Source of the DNA: a bacterium
GTDB taxonomy: Bacteria > Oederibacteriota > CAKKQC01
Length of the DNA: 43,029 bases
Reading direction: 5' to 3'
Assembly (NCBI GenBank): GCA_919901855.1
Contig: CAKKQC010000014.1
Coordinates: 1-43,029 of the forward strand
The position numbers were made by a program, and so were the translations under genes. The notes beneath the pieces are model-generated. The model did not search any database and was not told the origin of the DNA. It saw only the letters and a list, made by a program, of their open reading frames with translations. Every line of letters starts with the position of its first letter. The first letter of the stretch is position 1. Of the stretch, positions 33,556 to 40,644 are shown in pieces.

Positions 33556-34509
33556 ATGTCGGGGGCCGCAGAGAGGCGCAGAACCGTGATGCCCGTCCGG
33601 GTTTCGTTGGCGATCCTGATGGCCGGCGGTCTCGCCGCCGGGGCAGTCGCCGACGCGCCCTCCGCCACCACCGCGTCCCAGCCCGCCGCAGCCCCGAACG
33701 CCCCGGGCGGGCAGATGACCCCCTCGTTTCTCAACGGGCGGGCGTGGGAGGACTTCCGCGCCGGCGAGTTCGGGGCGGCCACGCGGGGCTTCACCGAGGC
33801 CGTCGCCGCGGCTCCCCCGGGGACCTCAGACCACCTCCAGGCGCTCTACGGCCTCGGGATGACCTGGAATCTGCGGGGCCTCGGCCCCGACCCCGTGCTC
33901 GCGGCCAAGTGCTTCACGGAAGTCGTGACGCGCTCGCCCACGGGCGACGTCGCGGCCTGGTCCCAGCTCGCGCTCGCACGGATCAGGCATGCGGTCCCCG
34001 TCGGCACCGAGCCGGACTACGCCGCGGTCCGCAAGGCGTACCAGGAGGTCGTCACCAAGTTCCCGTTCCACCCCGCCGGCGAGGAGGCCTTCGTCTACCT
34101 CCAGTCGACGTGGGTGGCCACGCTCGACCCCAAGGACGCCGGGCAGGCGCTCGGGGCGCTGGAAGGCTTCATCAAGGACCACCCGGGCTCGAAGTTCCTG
34201 AGCGCCGCGTGGGCGCTCGTCGCCGAGTGCGCCGCCACCCTCGGGCGCCCGGACGATCGCCTCAAGGCCAAGATCGCGTCCCTCGAGGGCAAGGAGCTCG
34301 ATCCGACGAACCCGTATTCGGACAACGCCGCCCTCTACTGGGAAATCGCCACGATCGCGGAGTTCGAGGCCGGCGACTTCGCGGTGGCGCGCAAGTACTA
34401 CAAGGGCCTCGTGGACGACTATCCGCAGGACCAGCGCCGCTGGGGCGCGCGTCTCGCGCTCGAGCGCCTCGACTCGGTCGAGGCCAGGCTCCGGAAGGGC
34501 GGCAAGTGA
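33556..34509 (+). CDS. Secreted TPR-like protein heading the ABC operon
   Basis: A 317-residue protein with an N-terminal signal sequence (basic MPVRVSLAILMAGG, cleavage likely after VADA near 33). The mature part has helical repeats of TPR type (AWEDFRAGEFGAATRGFTEA, ALYGLGMTWNLRG, AYQEVVTKFPFHPAGEEAFV, YYKGLVDDYP) as found in outer-membrane or periplasmic scaffold proteins. Its stop overlaps the next start as TGATG. It may help bring substrate to the transporter or serve another envelope role. Longer frames upstream of 33556 lie in the divergent gene and are rejected. Confidence 0.8.
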   Translation: MSGAAERRRTVMPVRVSLAILMAGGLAAGAVADAPSATTASQPAAAPNAPGGQMTPSFLNGRAWEDFRAGEFGAATRGFTEAVAAAPPGTSDHLQALYGLGMTWNLRGLGPDPVLAAKCFTEVVTRSPTGDVAAWSQLALARIRHAVPVGTEPDYAAVRKAYQEVVTKFPFHPAGEEAFVYLQSTWVATLDPKDAGQALGALEGFIKDHPGSKFLSAAWALVAECAATLGRPDDRLKAKIASLEGKELDPTNPYSDNAALYWEIATIAEFEAGDFAVARKYYKGLVDDYPQDQRRWGARLALERLDSVEARLRKGGK

Positions 34510-36212
34510 TGGGCGACACGACGGCCCGGCTCAAGCGCTGGTTCCCGGTGTTCGTCATCGCGGCCGCGTTCGTCTGGGCCTGCGCGGTCATCGTCCTCCA
34601 CCGCACCGCGGAGGCGCCCGAGGGAACGATCGTGATCCGGGTCGGGCACTGGCAGTTGGAGACGAGCGTGCGGGAGGCCTTCGACACGCTGGCCAGGGAC
34701 TACCAGAAACTGCACCCGAACGTCCGGATCGTCCAGGACGCGATTCCCGAGACCACGTACGGCCAGTGGGTCACGACGAACCTCATGGGCGGCACGGCGC
34801 CGGACCTCATGGAGATCGGCATCGGCGTCACCGAGCCCCTGTGGATTTCGTACCAGCGCCGGTACTTCCACCCCCTGACCCAGTACACGGCGCGGCCCAA
34901 CCCCTACAACCGCGGCACCCCGCTCGAGAATACCCCGCTCCGGCAGACGTTCGCGGACGGGATGCGGTCGGCCTACATCGAGGCGCTGCAGGAGTACATG
35001 AAGATCAACCTCTCCCAGTTCGGGGTCCGGATCTTCTACAACAAGGGCCTGCTCAAGAAGCTGACCGGGCTGGACGAGGCGCCCCGCGACTACCACGGTT
35101 TCCTGGCGGCGTGCGAGGAGATCAAGAAGCACACGAACGCGGAGGGCAAGCATTTCGTCCCGATCGCGTGCTCGGGGTACCACTTCTGGATGTGGGAGAT
35201 GATGATGGCGGATCAGGTCACGTACCCGGCGCTCGCGCGCGCGGACTTCAACCGGGACGGGTACGTGGGCAACGACGAGAACTGGGTCGCGTTCAAGTCC
35301 GGCCGGCTCTCGTTCGACTTCCCCGCCTACCGGGCCCGGTTCAGGATGATCCGCCAGATTTCGGACGAGTTCCAGGTCGGATACACGGGGCTGACCCGGG
35401 ACGATGCGGTCCTCCTGTTCGCCCAGCAGAAGGCCGTGTTCATGCCCACGGGCACCTGGGACTCCCGGAGCCTCCAGGAGCAGGCCAAGGGGTCCTTCGA
35501 GGTCGGGCTCATGGAGTTCCCGCGGCCCACGGACCAGGACCCGGAGTACGGCGAGTTCATCAAGGGGCCCCTCTACGAGGTACCGTGGGTCGGCTTCCCG
35601 TTCGGGATCGTACGGACGAGCAAGCATCCGGACGTCGCCCTGGACTTCCTCCTCTTCCTCGCGAGCCAGCCGAACAACGAGAAGTTCAACCGGATCATCG
35701 GCTGGATCCCGAGCGTGGTCGGATGCACCATGGACCCGCTGCTCGAGGCGTTCAAACCCAAGCTCGAAGGCGTATACGGGGCCATGAACTTCGGGCTCGG
35801 CGGGGAAACCTGGGTCCGCTGGAGCCAGGACTACTCCCTCTTCCAGGTGAACCAGATCGACTACGACGAACTCGCCAAGCGCTTCGGCCCCTTCTATATC
35901 GAGAAGGGCCTCAAGGACTTCATGGAAGTGAACCGGGACTGGCGTCGCACGATCCGGACCGACGAGGAGTTCCTAGCCGGGATCCGGGCCAAAGCGCTCC
36001 TCGCCACGGGCGACGAAGCCGCCTCGCTCTGGATCAAGTACCGGTCGCTGACGGCCATGCGCCAGGTCCTGCCCGAGGTGACGCACGCCCGGCTCATGGC
36101 GCTCGTCACGAAGGGGCCGGATCCGAAGGCCGTGGGGCCGTACGAGCATTCCCCCGAGGTTCTGGACCGCGTCCGGGCCCGGCTCAAGGGCGGAAGGGTG
36201 CCAAAACGATGA
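34509..36212 (+). CDS. ABC transporter substrate-binding protein (sugar type, membrane-anchored)
   Basis: A 567-residue solute-binding protein of the MalE/UgpB class. Residues 11-33 are a hydrophobic helix (FPVFVIAAAFVWACAVIVLH) that could be a signal anchor; a C at 25 is not in a good lipobox. The mature part shows FDTLARDYQKLHPNVRIVQD, GGTAPDLMEIG, FYNKGLLKKLTG, ALLFAQQ-like LLFAQQKAVFMPTGTWDS and VPWVGFPFGIVRTSKHPD, typical of the fold. It is longer than usual (about 430) through insertions and a C-terminal extension. Start and stop overlap with both neighbours (TGATG, ATGA), placing it firmly in the operon with the fused permease. Confidence 0.9.
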   Translation: MGDTTARLKRWFPVFVIAAAFVWACAVIVLHRTAEAPEGTIVIRVGHWQLETSVREAFDTLARDYQKLHPNVRIVQDAIPETTYGQWVTTNLMGGTAPDLMEIGIGVTEPLWISYQRRYFHPLTQYTARPNPYNRGTPLENTPLRQTFADGMRSAYIEALQEYMKINLSQFGVRIFYNKGLLKKLTGLDEAPRDYHGFLAACEEIKKHTNAEGKHFVPIACSGYHFWMWEMMMADQVTYPALARADFNRDGYVGNDENWVAFKSGRLSFDFPAYRARFRMIRQISDEFQVGYTGLTRDDAVLLFAQQKAVFMPTGTWDSRSLQEQAKGSFEVGLMEFPRPTDQDPEYGEFIKGPLYEVPWVGFPFGIVRTSKHPDVALDFLLFLASQPNNEKFNRIIGWIPSVVGCTMDPLLEAFKPKLEGVYGAMNFGLGGETWVRWSQDYSLFQVNQIDYDELAKRFGPFYIEKGLKDFMEVNRDWRRTIRTDEEFLAGIRAKALLATGDEAASLWIKYRSLTAMRQVLPEVTHARLMALVTKGPDPKAVGPYEHSPEVLDRVRARLKGGRVPKR

Positions 36213-38344
36213 CCCCCAAGATCGTCACGTGGAAACAGGTCCGGCATCACTGGGAGATCTACCTGCTCGTGGTCCCGACCATGTTCCTGATCGGGCTCTT
36301 CCAGTACTACCCCGCCGCGAGTGGGGTCTACCACAGCCTGTTCCGTTGGAACGGCGCCGACATCTCCGAGTACGTGGGATGGCGGAACTTCGGGGACCTG
36401 CTGGGCTCGACCGAGTTCTGGGACTCCTTCCGGCTCGCGTTCATCATGGGCGCCTGGGCCATTCTCAAGCTGATCCCGCCGATCATCGTCGCGGTCTGCA
36501 TTCACCGGGTCGCGAGCGACCGGCTCCAGTTCCTGTACCGGGCCCTGTTCGTGATCCCCATGGTCATCCCCCCTCTCATCATCGCCCTGATCTGGAGGTC
36601 GTTCTTCTTCGAGGCCACCTCCGGTTACCTCAACCGGTTCCTCGAGGCCACCGGGCTCTTCGGCCTGCTCTGCCGGGCCGACCAGTGGTTCCACTGGGGC
36701 GGCATCTTCGTCGCGGGCGTCAAGCCCGCGTGGCTGGGAGACCCGCGGCTGATCATCACCTCGGTGGTCATATGGGGCTTTCCCTGGGTGGGCACGTTCG
36801 CCGTGCTCATGCACCTCGCCAAGCTCGGGGGCATCCCCAAGTCCTTCTACGAGGCCGGCGAGATCGAGGGAGCGAACTGGTGGACGAAGTTCACGAAGAT
36901 CGAGCTGCCCGCGATGGTGGGCTCGATCTACGTCGTCCTCGTCATCGAAATCATCAACACGATCCGGGATGCCGGCTCGATCCTGGCGCTCGTGGGCATC
37001 CAGGGCGGTCCCGGCGGCCGGGGCACGGTGCCTGCCCTGTTCATGCTCCGCAAGGCCTTCTTCGAGCAGGACATGGGCTACGCATGCGCGGTGGGGCTGG
37101 TCCTGACCGTCGTGGTCCTGAGCCTCCAGAAGTCGTTCACCGTGGCCATGGAGTGGGAGACGCAGCCGAAGACCAGCCGGATCGCGGTCCGCGTGTTCGG
37201 ACTCGCGGTGGGTGCCGTCATGCTGGCGTTCGGCCGGCTCGTCCCTCTCGGCTGGATCCTGCTCCTGGCCTCCTTCCCCTACCCCTTCGCCTACCGGCTC
37301 CTGCCCGGGGCCGTGCGCCGGCCGGCCGATCGTCTCCTGATCCGGCTGGGAATCATCCGGCTGCCGCCCTCCGTCATCGTCCAGCGCCGGGACCCCGGCG
37401 TGTACATCCCGCAGAAGACCGTCCGGCAGGCGGCCGCGGCCGCGGCGGCGGCCGCCCCGGGGGGAAGCGTCCCCGTGGCGGCGCCTTCGACCCTGACCGT
37501 CCCGGCGGCACCCCAGCCGCCCCCCGGCCGGATGGCGCGGCACCTGCTCGAGGGCGGCAAGCACGGATTCATCTGGTTCGTGCTCGCGTTCGCGTTCCTC
37601 CCCCTGTATCTGATGGCCATCGTCTCGCTGAAGACCAACCAGCAGTTCTACGAGGCCCCGGCCCGGCTCTCGCCGCCCCTGCACTGGGAGAACTTCACCG
37701 CCGCGTGGCGCATGATCGCCCCGACGGTCGCGAACTCCGTGTTCATCACGATCTCGGCGACCCTCATTACTATCTGGTTCTCGCTCTGGGCCTCGTATTT
37801 CTTCGCGCGGGTGAAGGCCCCGCTCACGAACTTCCTCTGGAACGCCATCCTGATCCTCATGATGCTCCCGACGATCGCGAACCTCGTCCCCCTGTTCCGG
37901 CTCCTCGGGGACCTCCAGCTTCTGAACACGCTTACCGCCCTCGTGGTCGTTTCGGCCAGCGGCGGCCAGGTCTACGCGATCTTCACGCTGAAGAACTTCA
38001 TCGCCGACATCCCCCAGGAGCTCTTCGACTCGGCCGAGGTGGATGGGGCAAACCACTTCGACCAGGTGCGCGTGATCGTGATCCCGCAGGCCGGCGCGAT
38101 CCTGGGCACCGTCGGCGTCATGCACTTCATCACCGAGTGGAACAACTTCCTCCTGCCCCTGATAGTCATGCGGGACCACGACCGGCTACCCGTGATGGTC
38201 CAGTTGCTCCGGATGTCGGGCGAATACCTCAAGTTCTGGGGGCCGCTGATGGCCGGCTACGCGCTCGCGAGCATCCCGATCATCATCCTGTTCCTGTTCA
38301 CCATGCGGCTATTCATGCGGGGCCTGACCGAGGGGATGCACTGA
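36209..38344 (+). CDS. Two ABC sugar permease domains (MalF- and MalG-like) in one polypeptide
   Basis: A 711-residue membrane protein. The first half (about 15-310) is MalF/UgpA-like, with the EAA loop EAGEIEGANWWTKFTKIELP near 215. A further pair of hydrophobic helices (about 325-365) and a soluble linker with a ten-alanine run and proline-rich end (about 400-445) follow. The second half (about 450-711) is MalG/UgpE-like, with the EAA loop DSAEVDGANHFDQVRVIVIP near 607. These two subunits are normally separate genes. The frame is continuous with no stop or shift between them. No ATPase gene is in the window, so a shared MsmX/MsmK-type ATPase elsewhere would be needed. The start ATG overlaps the previous stop (ATGA). 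Confidence 0.9.
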   Translation: MTPKIVTWKQVRHHWEIYLLVVPTMFLIGLFQYYPAASGVYHSLFRWNGADISEYVGWRNFGDLLGSTEFWDSFRLAFIMGAWAILKLIPPIIVAVCIHRVASDRLQFLYRALFVIPMVIPPLIIALIWRSFFFEATSGYLNRFLEATGLFGLLCRADQWFHWGGIFVAGVKPAWLGDPRLIITSVVIWGFPWVGTFAVLMHLAKLGGIPKSFYEAGEIEGANWWTKFTKIELPAMVGSIYVVLVIEIINTIRDAGSILALVGIQGGPGGRGTVPALFMLRKAFFEQDMGYACAVGLVLTVVVLSLQKSFTVAMEWETQPKTSRIAVRVFGLAVGAVMLAFGRLVPLGWILLLASFPYPFAYRLLPGAVRRPADRLLIRLGIIRLPPSVIVQRRDPGVYIPQKTVRQAAAAAAAAAPGGSVPVAAPSTLTVPAAPQPPPGRMARHLLEGGKHGFIWFVLAFAFLPLYLMAIVSLKTNQQFYEAPARLSPPLHWENFTAAWRMIAPTVANSVFITISATLITIWFSLWASYFFARVKAPLTNFLWNAILILMMLPTIANLVPLFRLLGDLQLLNTLTALVVVSASGGQVYAIFTLKNFIADIPQELFDSAEVDGANHFDQVRVIVIPQAGAILGTVGVMHFITEWNNFLLPLIVMRDHDRLPVMVQLLRMSGEYLKFWGPLMAGYALASIPIIILFLFTMRLFMRGLTEGMH

Positions 38345-40644
38345 CGCCAGGCCTGCCGGGCCTCGTCTTCGCCGGAACCCTCTTTTTCCTCTCCGGGTGT
38401 TCGGCGCTCGTCTACGAGATCCTGTGGATCCGCGAGTTCGGATTCCTGCTGGGGAACGCGACGGCGACGCTGTCCGCGGTGCTGGCGGCGTACATGGCCG
38501 GGCTGGCAGCCGGGAGTTGGACCGCGGCTCGGTGGTCCCGCCGGATCAAGCGGCCCCTCGCCGCCTACGGGGCGGCGGAACTCCTGATCGGCTTGGGCGG
38601 ACTCGCGGTCTACGCCATCCTCCGCGGCGCCGCCAACCACCTCGGACCCATCGGGCTCGACGAGGAGGGCGGCATCCTCCCCGCGCTCCAGCGGTTCGGC
38701 GTCGCCGGCGCGATCCTGCTGGTACCCACCGCGCTCATGGGCGCCACGCTCCCGCTTCTGGTCCGTCACCTCGCGACCGGTCCGGGGGGGACGACGGCGG
38801 CACCGGGCGTCACCGTGGGAGCGCTGTATGGGCTGAACACGTTCGGCGCCGCCGTGGGATGTTTCGGCGCCGGGTTCTTCCTGATCCGGCTCCTCGGCAC
38901 GGCGGCCACCAATCGGGTGGCGGTCTGCATGAACATCGCGATCGGGCTCGCCGCCTTGGTCGTTGGGTTACGACCCTCCGCCATCAGGCCCGTGCCGCCT
39001 CCCCCGGGTGCAGGCACGGCCTCTCCGCGAAGCCTCCCCTTCTTCCTCGGATTCTCCTGCTTCGCCTGCGGGGCCCTGAGCCTGTCGAACGAGGTCGTGT
39101 TCGGCCGATTGCTCGCCTGGCTCCTCGGCAACCGCGTCTACGCCTCCGCCATGATGCTCACGGCGTTCCTCCTCGGGATCGCGCTCGGCAGCCTCGCTGT
39201 CGGACGGCTCGCGGACCGGTGGCTGCGCCCCGACGGCGGCGGCCGCGAAATCGAACTGTTCTCCTGGTTCCAGGTCGTAGCCGGGCTCTCCGTGCTCGCG
39301 GCGCTTTGGTGGTTTCCCGACGTCCTCGCGTCCGCCCGGCGCGCCGAGGCCGCGGTCGGGTACGACCGCACGTGGACGATCGTGCGCATCCGCCTCGTCG
39401 AGGCCCTGGCCGTGGTGGCGGTGCCCGCGCTCATGTCCGGCGCGTGCTTCCCCCTCCTGGTCCGGGCGATCCACCGGGCGGGCGGCGAACTCGGGGCCTC
39501 GGCGGGCGCCGGCTACGCGCTGAACACCTTCGGGTGCATTCTCGGCTCGCTGGTCACGGGATTCTGGCTGATCCCCGTGCTGGGCACCTACGCGACCGCG
39601 GTCCTGATCGCGGTGGGCTCCATCCTCCTGGGCCACCGGGCATTGGCCGGCCCCTGGGAGGGACGCTCTCGAGGTCGCCGAATCGTCTCCGTCGCGGCCG
39701 TCGCCTCGCTAGCCGCGCTATCGGGAATCACGGCCCTCCGCCATCCCCGGTTCCCTTTCCCCCGCGAGCGGCTAACCCTGGTCTGGAGCCGCGAGGAGCC
39801 GGCGGCCCTGATCACGGTCTGGAAGGGCGGCCTGGGTTGGAACCTCTATGGCGACGACACTCCGCTCTCGTTCCCGATCGGCGAGCACTCGGCCGCGGTC
39901 CGCGTCCAACGCCTGCAGGCTTGGCTCCCCCTCCTCCTGCACCCGGACCCCCACCGGGTCCTCGTGGTCGGGCTCGGATTCGGCGTCACGACCGGGGCCT
40001 TCGCGGCCTCCGGCGTCCCCGGCTCCGTCGAGACCGTCGAGCTCTTCCGCGGCGTCGTCGAGTGCGCCTCGCTCTTCCGGGACAGCAACGGGGACCCGGC
40101 CCGGCTCCCGCGCTCGACCATGATCGTCGGCGACGGCCGCTACTACCTCCGGCACGGCGGCACGGGCTGGGACGTCATCACGTCGAACCTGACCGGCCCG
40201 GACCTCCCGGGCTCCGCGGCCCTGTACACGCGCGAGTACTTCGAGCTCGCACGATCGAAGCTCAACCCCGGCGGGATCTTCGTCGTGCATGCCTACGGCC
40301 CCGGGGAAGACGTGATCCTCCGGACGGTGGGGGCCGTCTTCCCGCACGTCACCGGGTGGCGCGGCTACCGCACCTCGCTCTACCTCATCGCGAGCATGGA
40401 ACCGGTGGCGCTCGACCGCGCCGCGTTCGACCGGAAGCTTGCGGCCTACCCGGCCCTCCGGGAGGCCCTGGCGGCCGGAGGCCTGCGGCGGTTCCGCGAC
40501 GTCGCCGCCCTCCGCGTCCTCGACGAGGCCGCGTTCCGCCGCGTCGCGGACCGCCCGGACCTGCCCGTCAACTCCGACGAGTTCCCCGTCCTCGAATACC
40601 GGATGACCGCGAACGCCCGCGACCTCTTCCATGCCCACTTTTAG
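38341..40644 (+). CDS. Multi-helix membrane protein fused to a spermidine-synthase-like domain, probable CTG start
   Basis: About 767 residues. The first 480 contain a dozen or more helices opening with LFFLSGCSALVYEILWIREF, the hallmark of fused transporter/spermidine synthase proteins; a second similar block begins at ACGALSLSNEVVFGRLLAWL. Residues 530-700 are a Rossmann methyl/aminopropyl-transferase-like domain (VLVVGLGFGVTTGAFA, TVELFRGVVEC, GDGRYYLRHG, DVITSNLTGPDLPGSAALYT). The frame has no ATG, GTG or TTG before the conserved first helix. A CTG at 38341 has GAGGGG at a 5-6 bp distance and overlaps the permease stop (CTGA), which makes it the best start. Substrate unknown. Confidence 0.85.
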   Translation: MTPGLPGLVFAGTLFFLSGCSALVYEILWIREFGFLLGNATATLSAVLAAYMAGLAAGSWTAARWSRRIKRPLAAYGAAELLIGLGGLAVYAILRGAANHLGPIGLDEEGGILPALQRFGVAGAILLVPTALMGATLPLLVRHLATGPGGTTAAPGVTVGALYGLNTFGAAVGCFGAGFFLIRLLGTAATNRVAVCMNIAIGLAALVVGLRPSAIRPVPPPPGAGTASPRSLPFFLGFSCFACGALSLSNEVVFGRLLAWLLGNRVYASAMMLTAFLLGIALGSLAVGRLADRWLRPDGGGREIELFSWFQVVAGLSVLAALWWFPDVLASARRAEAAVGYDRTWTIVRIRLVEALAVVAVPALMSGACFPLLVRAIHRAGGELGASAGAGYALNTFGCILGSLVTGFWLIPVLGTYATAVLIAVGSILLGHRALAGPWEGRSRGRRIVSVAAVASLAALSGITALRHPRFPFPRERLTLVWSREEPAALITVWKGGLGWNLYGDDTPLSFPIGEHSAAVRVQRLQAWLPLLLHPDPHRVLVVGLGFGVTTGAFAASGVPGSVETVELFRGVVECASLFRDSNGDPARLPRSTMIVGDGRYYLRHGGTGWDVITSNLTGPDLPGSAALYTREYFELARSKLNPGGIFVVHAYGPGEDVILRTVGAVFPHVTGWRGYRTSLYLIASMEPVALDRAAFDRKLAAYPALREALAAGGLRRFRDVAALRVLDEAAFRRVADRPDLPVNSDEFPVLEYRMTANARDLFHAHF

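Follow-up and report, generated by a model that had tools for sequence, protein, structure and literature searches.

The window, i.e. the whole analysed stretch of 43,029 nucleotides, encodes a MalF-type and a MalG-type permease subunit in one polypeptide. This chain is very probably the heterodimeric permease of a type I ABC importer of the CUT1 kind, resembling MalFGK2, with MalK encoded elsewhere and a single origin of the fusion. It represents a conserved variation on the CUT1 importer architecture and no new mechanism. Coordinates are compiled in Table 1.

The permease gene runs in a single frame from ATG to TGA, its start codon overlapping the stop of the binding-protein gene on its 5' side (ATGA, 36209-36212). 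Two BPD_transp_1 domains are found by Pfam. Among NCBIfam models, parts of the N half match MalF/UgpA-type models and residues 454-709 match MalG/UgpE/GlcU-type models, while PDB sequence matches comprise AlgM1/MalF/SugA for the N half and SugB/MalG for the C half. Both EAA loops are present, and in that of the MalF half the core residues are invariant among orthologs. Frame, domain matches and loops agree with an earlier note on this DNA, which had described a one-chain MalF-MalG permease in an uninterrupted frame with an EAA loop per half. Its statement that two proteins are normal in this family is borne out for close relatives by the 34 split malF/malG pairs that were read, and the fixed 1:1 ratio of the halves follows directly from their location in one chain; the linker would fix this ratio and keep the two halves of a chain paired with each other.

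Table 1. Location of the fused permease gene, its parts, the other genes of the trio and related proteins in other contigs or genomes. Positions without a prefix refer to the window.
Feature	Position	Strand	Basis
Fused MalF-MalG permease, 711 aa	36209..38344	+	translation, two BPD_transp_1 domains, orthologs
MalF-type half, residues about 1-315	36209..37153	+	NCBIfam, PDB sequence matches; structural match MalF/SugA
EAA loop of MalF half, residues 215-234, EAGEIEGANWWTKFTKIELP	36851..36910	+	sequence
Extra hydrophobic hairpin, residues 321-364	37169..37300	+	AlphaFold helices; absent in four orthologs
Variable linker, poly-Ala and Ala/Pro stretch (low-complexity), residues 365-440	37301..37528	+	low pLDDT, low identity
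MalG-type half, residues 441-711	37529..38341	+	PDB matches SugB/MalG
EAA loop of MalG half, residues 607-626, DSAEVDGANHFDQVRVIVIP	38027..38086	+	sequence
Substrate-binding protein, 567 aa, N-terminal membrane anchor	34509..36212	+	SBP_bac_1; hydrophobic N-terminal segment
TPR-repeat secreted protein, about 306 aa, first gene of trio, inferred start codon	33589..34509	+	weak TPR_6 match
Binding protein-MalF fusion, 807 aa	L020:3315-5738 (contig C6)	+	
Binding protein-MalF fusion, 804 aa	L016:7820-10234 (contig C28)	-	
Long MalG-type proteins	L074:633-2582, L075:2411-4360, L077:1339-3228, L080:944-2893		

The fusion is real and a sequencing error is excluded. At this GC long open frames come easily, so that an uninterrupted frame is little proof by itself and the argument has to be made from conservation; an antisense ORF of 761 aa (35894-38179) likewise spans the permease stretch. 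Besides the window, 31 orthologous fused loci with 56-64% identity occur in other assemblies from several phyla, every counted fusion having been checked as a single ORF, and conservation of the whole architecture in these loci rules out chance or error. The possibility that the genes are truly split, a stop or frameshift between the halves having been missed in sequencing or assembly, was raised in the earlier note and carries a negligible probability. The window comes from a draft assembly, in which it makes up a whole contig, and in some close relatives just one in-frame stop separates the genes, but the independent orthologs, with linkers of 51-361 aa, refute such an error, and high GC at third positions is kept in the linker of the window (0.93 vs 0.94-0.95 in the halves).

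Eight fused orthologs were found in a genome scan, in assemblies named Kiritimatiellae, Candidatus Hydrogenedentota, Verrucomicrobia, Chthoniobacterales, Spartobacteria and Phycisphaera. In a genome of the same family as the window (G001) the fusion is present and interrupted solely by the contig end; its two halves matched those of the window at 62% and 71% identity, and its linker region is 20% identical. As to frequency and phyla, the survey proposed earlier places the fusion in the family of the window, in 21 of 387 genomes of Verrucomicrobiota (phylum of L059), in 2 of 68 of Hydrogenedentota (phylum of L053) and in 2 of 392 of Planctomycetota (phylum of L057), each phylum count including its centre genome, which was picked because the fusion gene is present. 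No orthologous fusion was detected among another 43 genomes from the phylum of the window, nor among 84 genomes of another phylum searched at E 1e-60. Further candidates with large open-frame values in the genome search, e.g. in G463 and G130, have stops between the genes and are split.

The fused permease is the last gene of a conserved trio, preceded by a TPR protein and a membrane-anchored binding protein. The binding protein lies directly 5' of the permease in 29 of the 31 ortholog loci, and the TPR protein 5' of the binding protein in 25 (most of the others end before that point); at L147 the sequence reaches that far, yet neither gene was found. The N-terminal hydrophobic anchor of the binding protein is kept in the orthologs read. 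Resemblance of this protein to characterised sugar-binding proteins is weak (best E about 7e-4), and the flanking genes form no consistent catabolic pathway and indicate no substrate, so the sugar assignment rests on the families of the permease and the binding protein. The substrate is probably an oligosaccharide. Directly 3' of the permease (38341-40644) the window encodes a long protein whose hydrophobic N-terminal part is followed by a spermidine-synthase-like domain; the start codon is uncertain.

The features of CUT1 importers are found together, i.e. MalF- and MalG-type BPD_transp_1 domains, an EAA loop per half, an SBP_bac_1 partner and a MalK-type ATPase in the genome. The fused permease most likely works as an ordinary sugar pump driven by an ATPase encoded elsewhere. 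The binding protein, anchored in the inner membrane, would capture its sugar or oligosaccharide on the periplasmic side and dock on the permease, and two MalK copies would bind both EAA loops and drive alternating access. MalFGK2, SugABC and AlgM1M2SS share the MalF- and MalG-type domains, EAA loops, SBP_bac_1 protein and MalK-type ATPase; the window differs in having both permease halves on one chain with a hairpin and linker placed between them, in the membrane anchor of its binding protein and in an ATPase that is unlinked in its genome.

Fused permeases also serve other solutes, FbpB transporting iron and ThiP thiamine. That the chain of the window, too, moves something other than sugar is quite improbable. 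Fused FbpB of the ferric importer FbpBC, which likewise has two type I permease domains per chain, is the best structural match to the whole model (9j4r_A, 475 residues, model 29-708, Z 24.1, rmsd 3.8), and the flanking genes are not consistently carbohydrate genes. This match, however, mirrors chain architecture at about 15% identity with a member of another family, without the extra hairpin of the sugar-type chain. Both halves group by sequence with MalF/MalG, SugA/SugB and AlgM1/AlgM2; GlcU/MalG/UgpE and SugB rank first in the NCBIfam and PDB searches, where no FbpB or ThiP model is listed. The binding protein is of the SBP_bac_1 family, and the likely partner ATPase is of MalK type with an OB domain.

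The genome of the window possesses one MalK-type ATPase (C15:904-2022) with an OB/TOBE domain, an orphan with no adjoining permease gene, and its remaining ABC ATPases are at most 36% identical to MalK. The label "without ATPase" in the earlier note is thus correct locally but not beyond, since this orphan exists and two orthologous loci (L135 and L137, in genomes G273 and G244) carry malK immediately 3' of the permease, 58.8% identical to the MalK of the window's genome; the shared ATPase elsewhere that the note had implied gains support. As the sole ATPase of its type found in a genome 93% complete, the orphan MalK is best inferred to be the partner of the fused permease, shared with other sugar transporters. 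In Bacillus, sharing by several sugar importers has been shown for the multitask MalK-type ATPase MsmX (PMC7658222). One MalK beside several sugar-type permease pairs (contigs C34, C6 and C28) would fit such sharing in the present genome. Two other sugar-type transporters of this genome have a binding protein fused to a MalF-type permease (SBP_bac_1 + BPD_transp_1, one ORF each; Table 1).

The AlphaFold model of the fused chain (mean pLDDT 88.2, pTM 0.84) contains both permease cores as a complete pseudo-dimer. Its alignment was built from fused and MalG rows plus eight split pairs translated across the one stop that separates their genes; MalF-only rows aligned in the wrong place and were left out. 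With 10 orthologs as input the pLDDT was 40. Structural matches of the separate halves are MalF/SugA on residues 6-318 (Z 16-18) and MalG/SugB on 436-711 (Z 16-20). Three helices (321-341, 345-355 and 358-364) form the hairpin with pLDDT of about 85-95, and much of the linker has pLDDT <=60, residues ~380-440 being poorly predicted.

Cleavage of the single chain in the Ala/Pro linker, which would yield an ordinary two-protein MalF-MalG complex, would be in line with this poor prediction and with the free evolution of the linker (20% identity vs 66-71% in the halves). We consider it very improbable, because the linkers differ completely between orthologs, so that no cleavage motif is apparent, and because FbpB and FhuB are uncut fused permeases that work (PMC8660799 for FhuB). 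FhuB, the ferrichrome permease of E. coli, is a single membrane subunit of two homologous halves combined with two ATPase subunits, a plan shared with the uncut chain favoured here, but it is a type II importer with 10+10 helices (PMC8660799).

Linkers of most orthologs contain about two hydrophobic segments. In L145 and L147-L152 except L148 there are about four to twelve, the number moving with the threshold, as greedy hydrophobicity counts of linker helices do. The linker of L152 (8553-11432, minus strand) is 361 aa long with about 8-12 such segments and holds one module twice, in diverged copies (25% identity over 135 aa, E 6e-11). Conversely, the linkers of L057, L135, L137 and L142 have no hydrophobic segment at any threshold tried. 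Since these four manage without one, the hairpin is not needed for orientation, and the earlier proposal that extra helices keep the second half the right way round is not borne out. In the established topology of the family, the six-helix core of MalF already finishes at the cytoplasmic face, from which MalG starts. Dynamic-programming topology prefers an even helix number in 32 of 32 linkers, a count made without a shuffled control and with a positive-inside term that favours cytoplasmic ends, which is suggestive of a helix number that is always even.

Linker and hairpin would together represent a tolerant joining region with no helices or several. A function of the hairpin itself, e.g. in regulation or as the place where the TPR protein or the anchored binding protein docks, is unlikely. 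Its presence in most orthologs, the several additional hydrophobic segments of some and the duplicated module in L152 speak for such a role; however, both the binding-protein gene and the TPR gene are retained in the four orthologs without a hairpin, and the hairpin shows hardly any sequence conservation.

In FastTree phylogenies of either half and of the two together, a single branch (SH-like support 1.0) parts fused from split sequences, and adjacent split genes form the sister clade of the fused clade. Split relatives have malF and malG spaced mostly by -4 to +24 nt (34 pairs). In 8 of the 34 pairs the two genes share a frame and are separated by one stop codon, whose loss would produce a first fusion. 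Because the fused proteins are one clade with a split-adjacent sister, the simplest account is one fusion event with later spread. Neighbouring malF-malG genes with coupled translation probably gave rise to the fusion once, and it then spread with the TPR/binding-protein trio. Patchy occurrence across phyla, together with the conserved trio, suggests horizontal transfer of the fused permease between phyla. The fused clade illustrates the passage from coupled adjacent genes to one gene, and the tolerance of a linker to gain and loss of helices.

Among importers of iron and siderophores, fused permeases are already known (FbpB, FhuB), and no natural one-chain MalF-MalG permease was found in open-licence papers, whose silence is weak evidence. 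The conserved one-chain form is a ready covalent heterodimer, useful for structural and single-chain mutagenesis work on an ABC importer family that is among the best studied. Tentatively, importers built from the trio of TPR protein, membrane-tethered binding protein and one-chain permease may form a subfamily of their own among sugar ABC importers, spread over Verrucomicrobiota, Planctomycetota, Hydrogenedentota and the phylum of the window, with a linker that gains and loses paired helices and might have a function of its own.

Two further elongated permease types were observed. In the split sister group, MalF of ~480 aa (L155:5347-6786, L153:6847-8322, L158:6774-8213) has an insert of ~170 aa with several hydrophobic stretches between core helices 1 and 2. 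Several genomes of the window's phylum encode MalG-type proteins of ~630-650 aa (Table 1) with ~400 extra residues ahead of the core.
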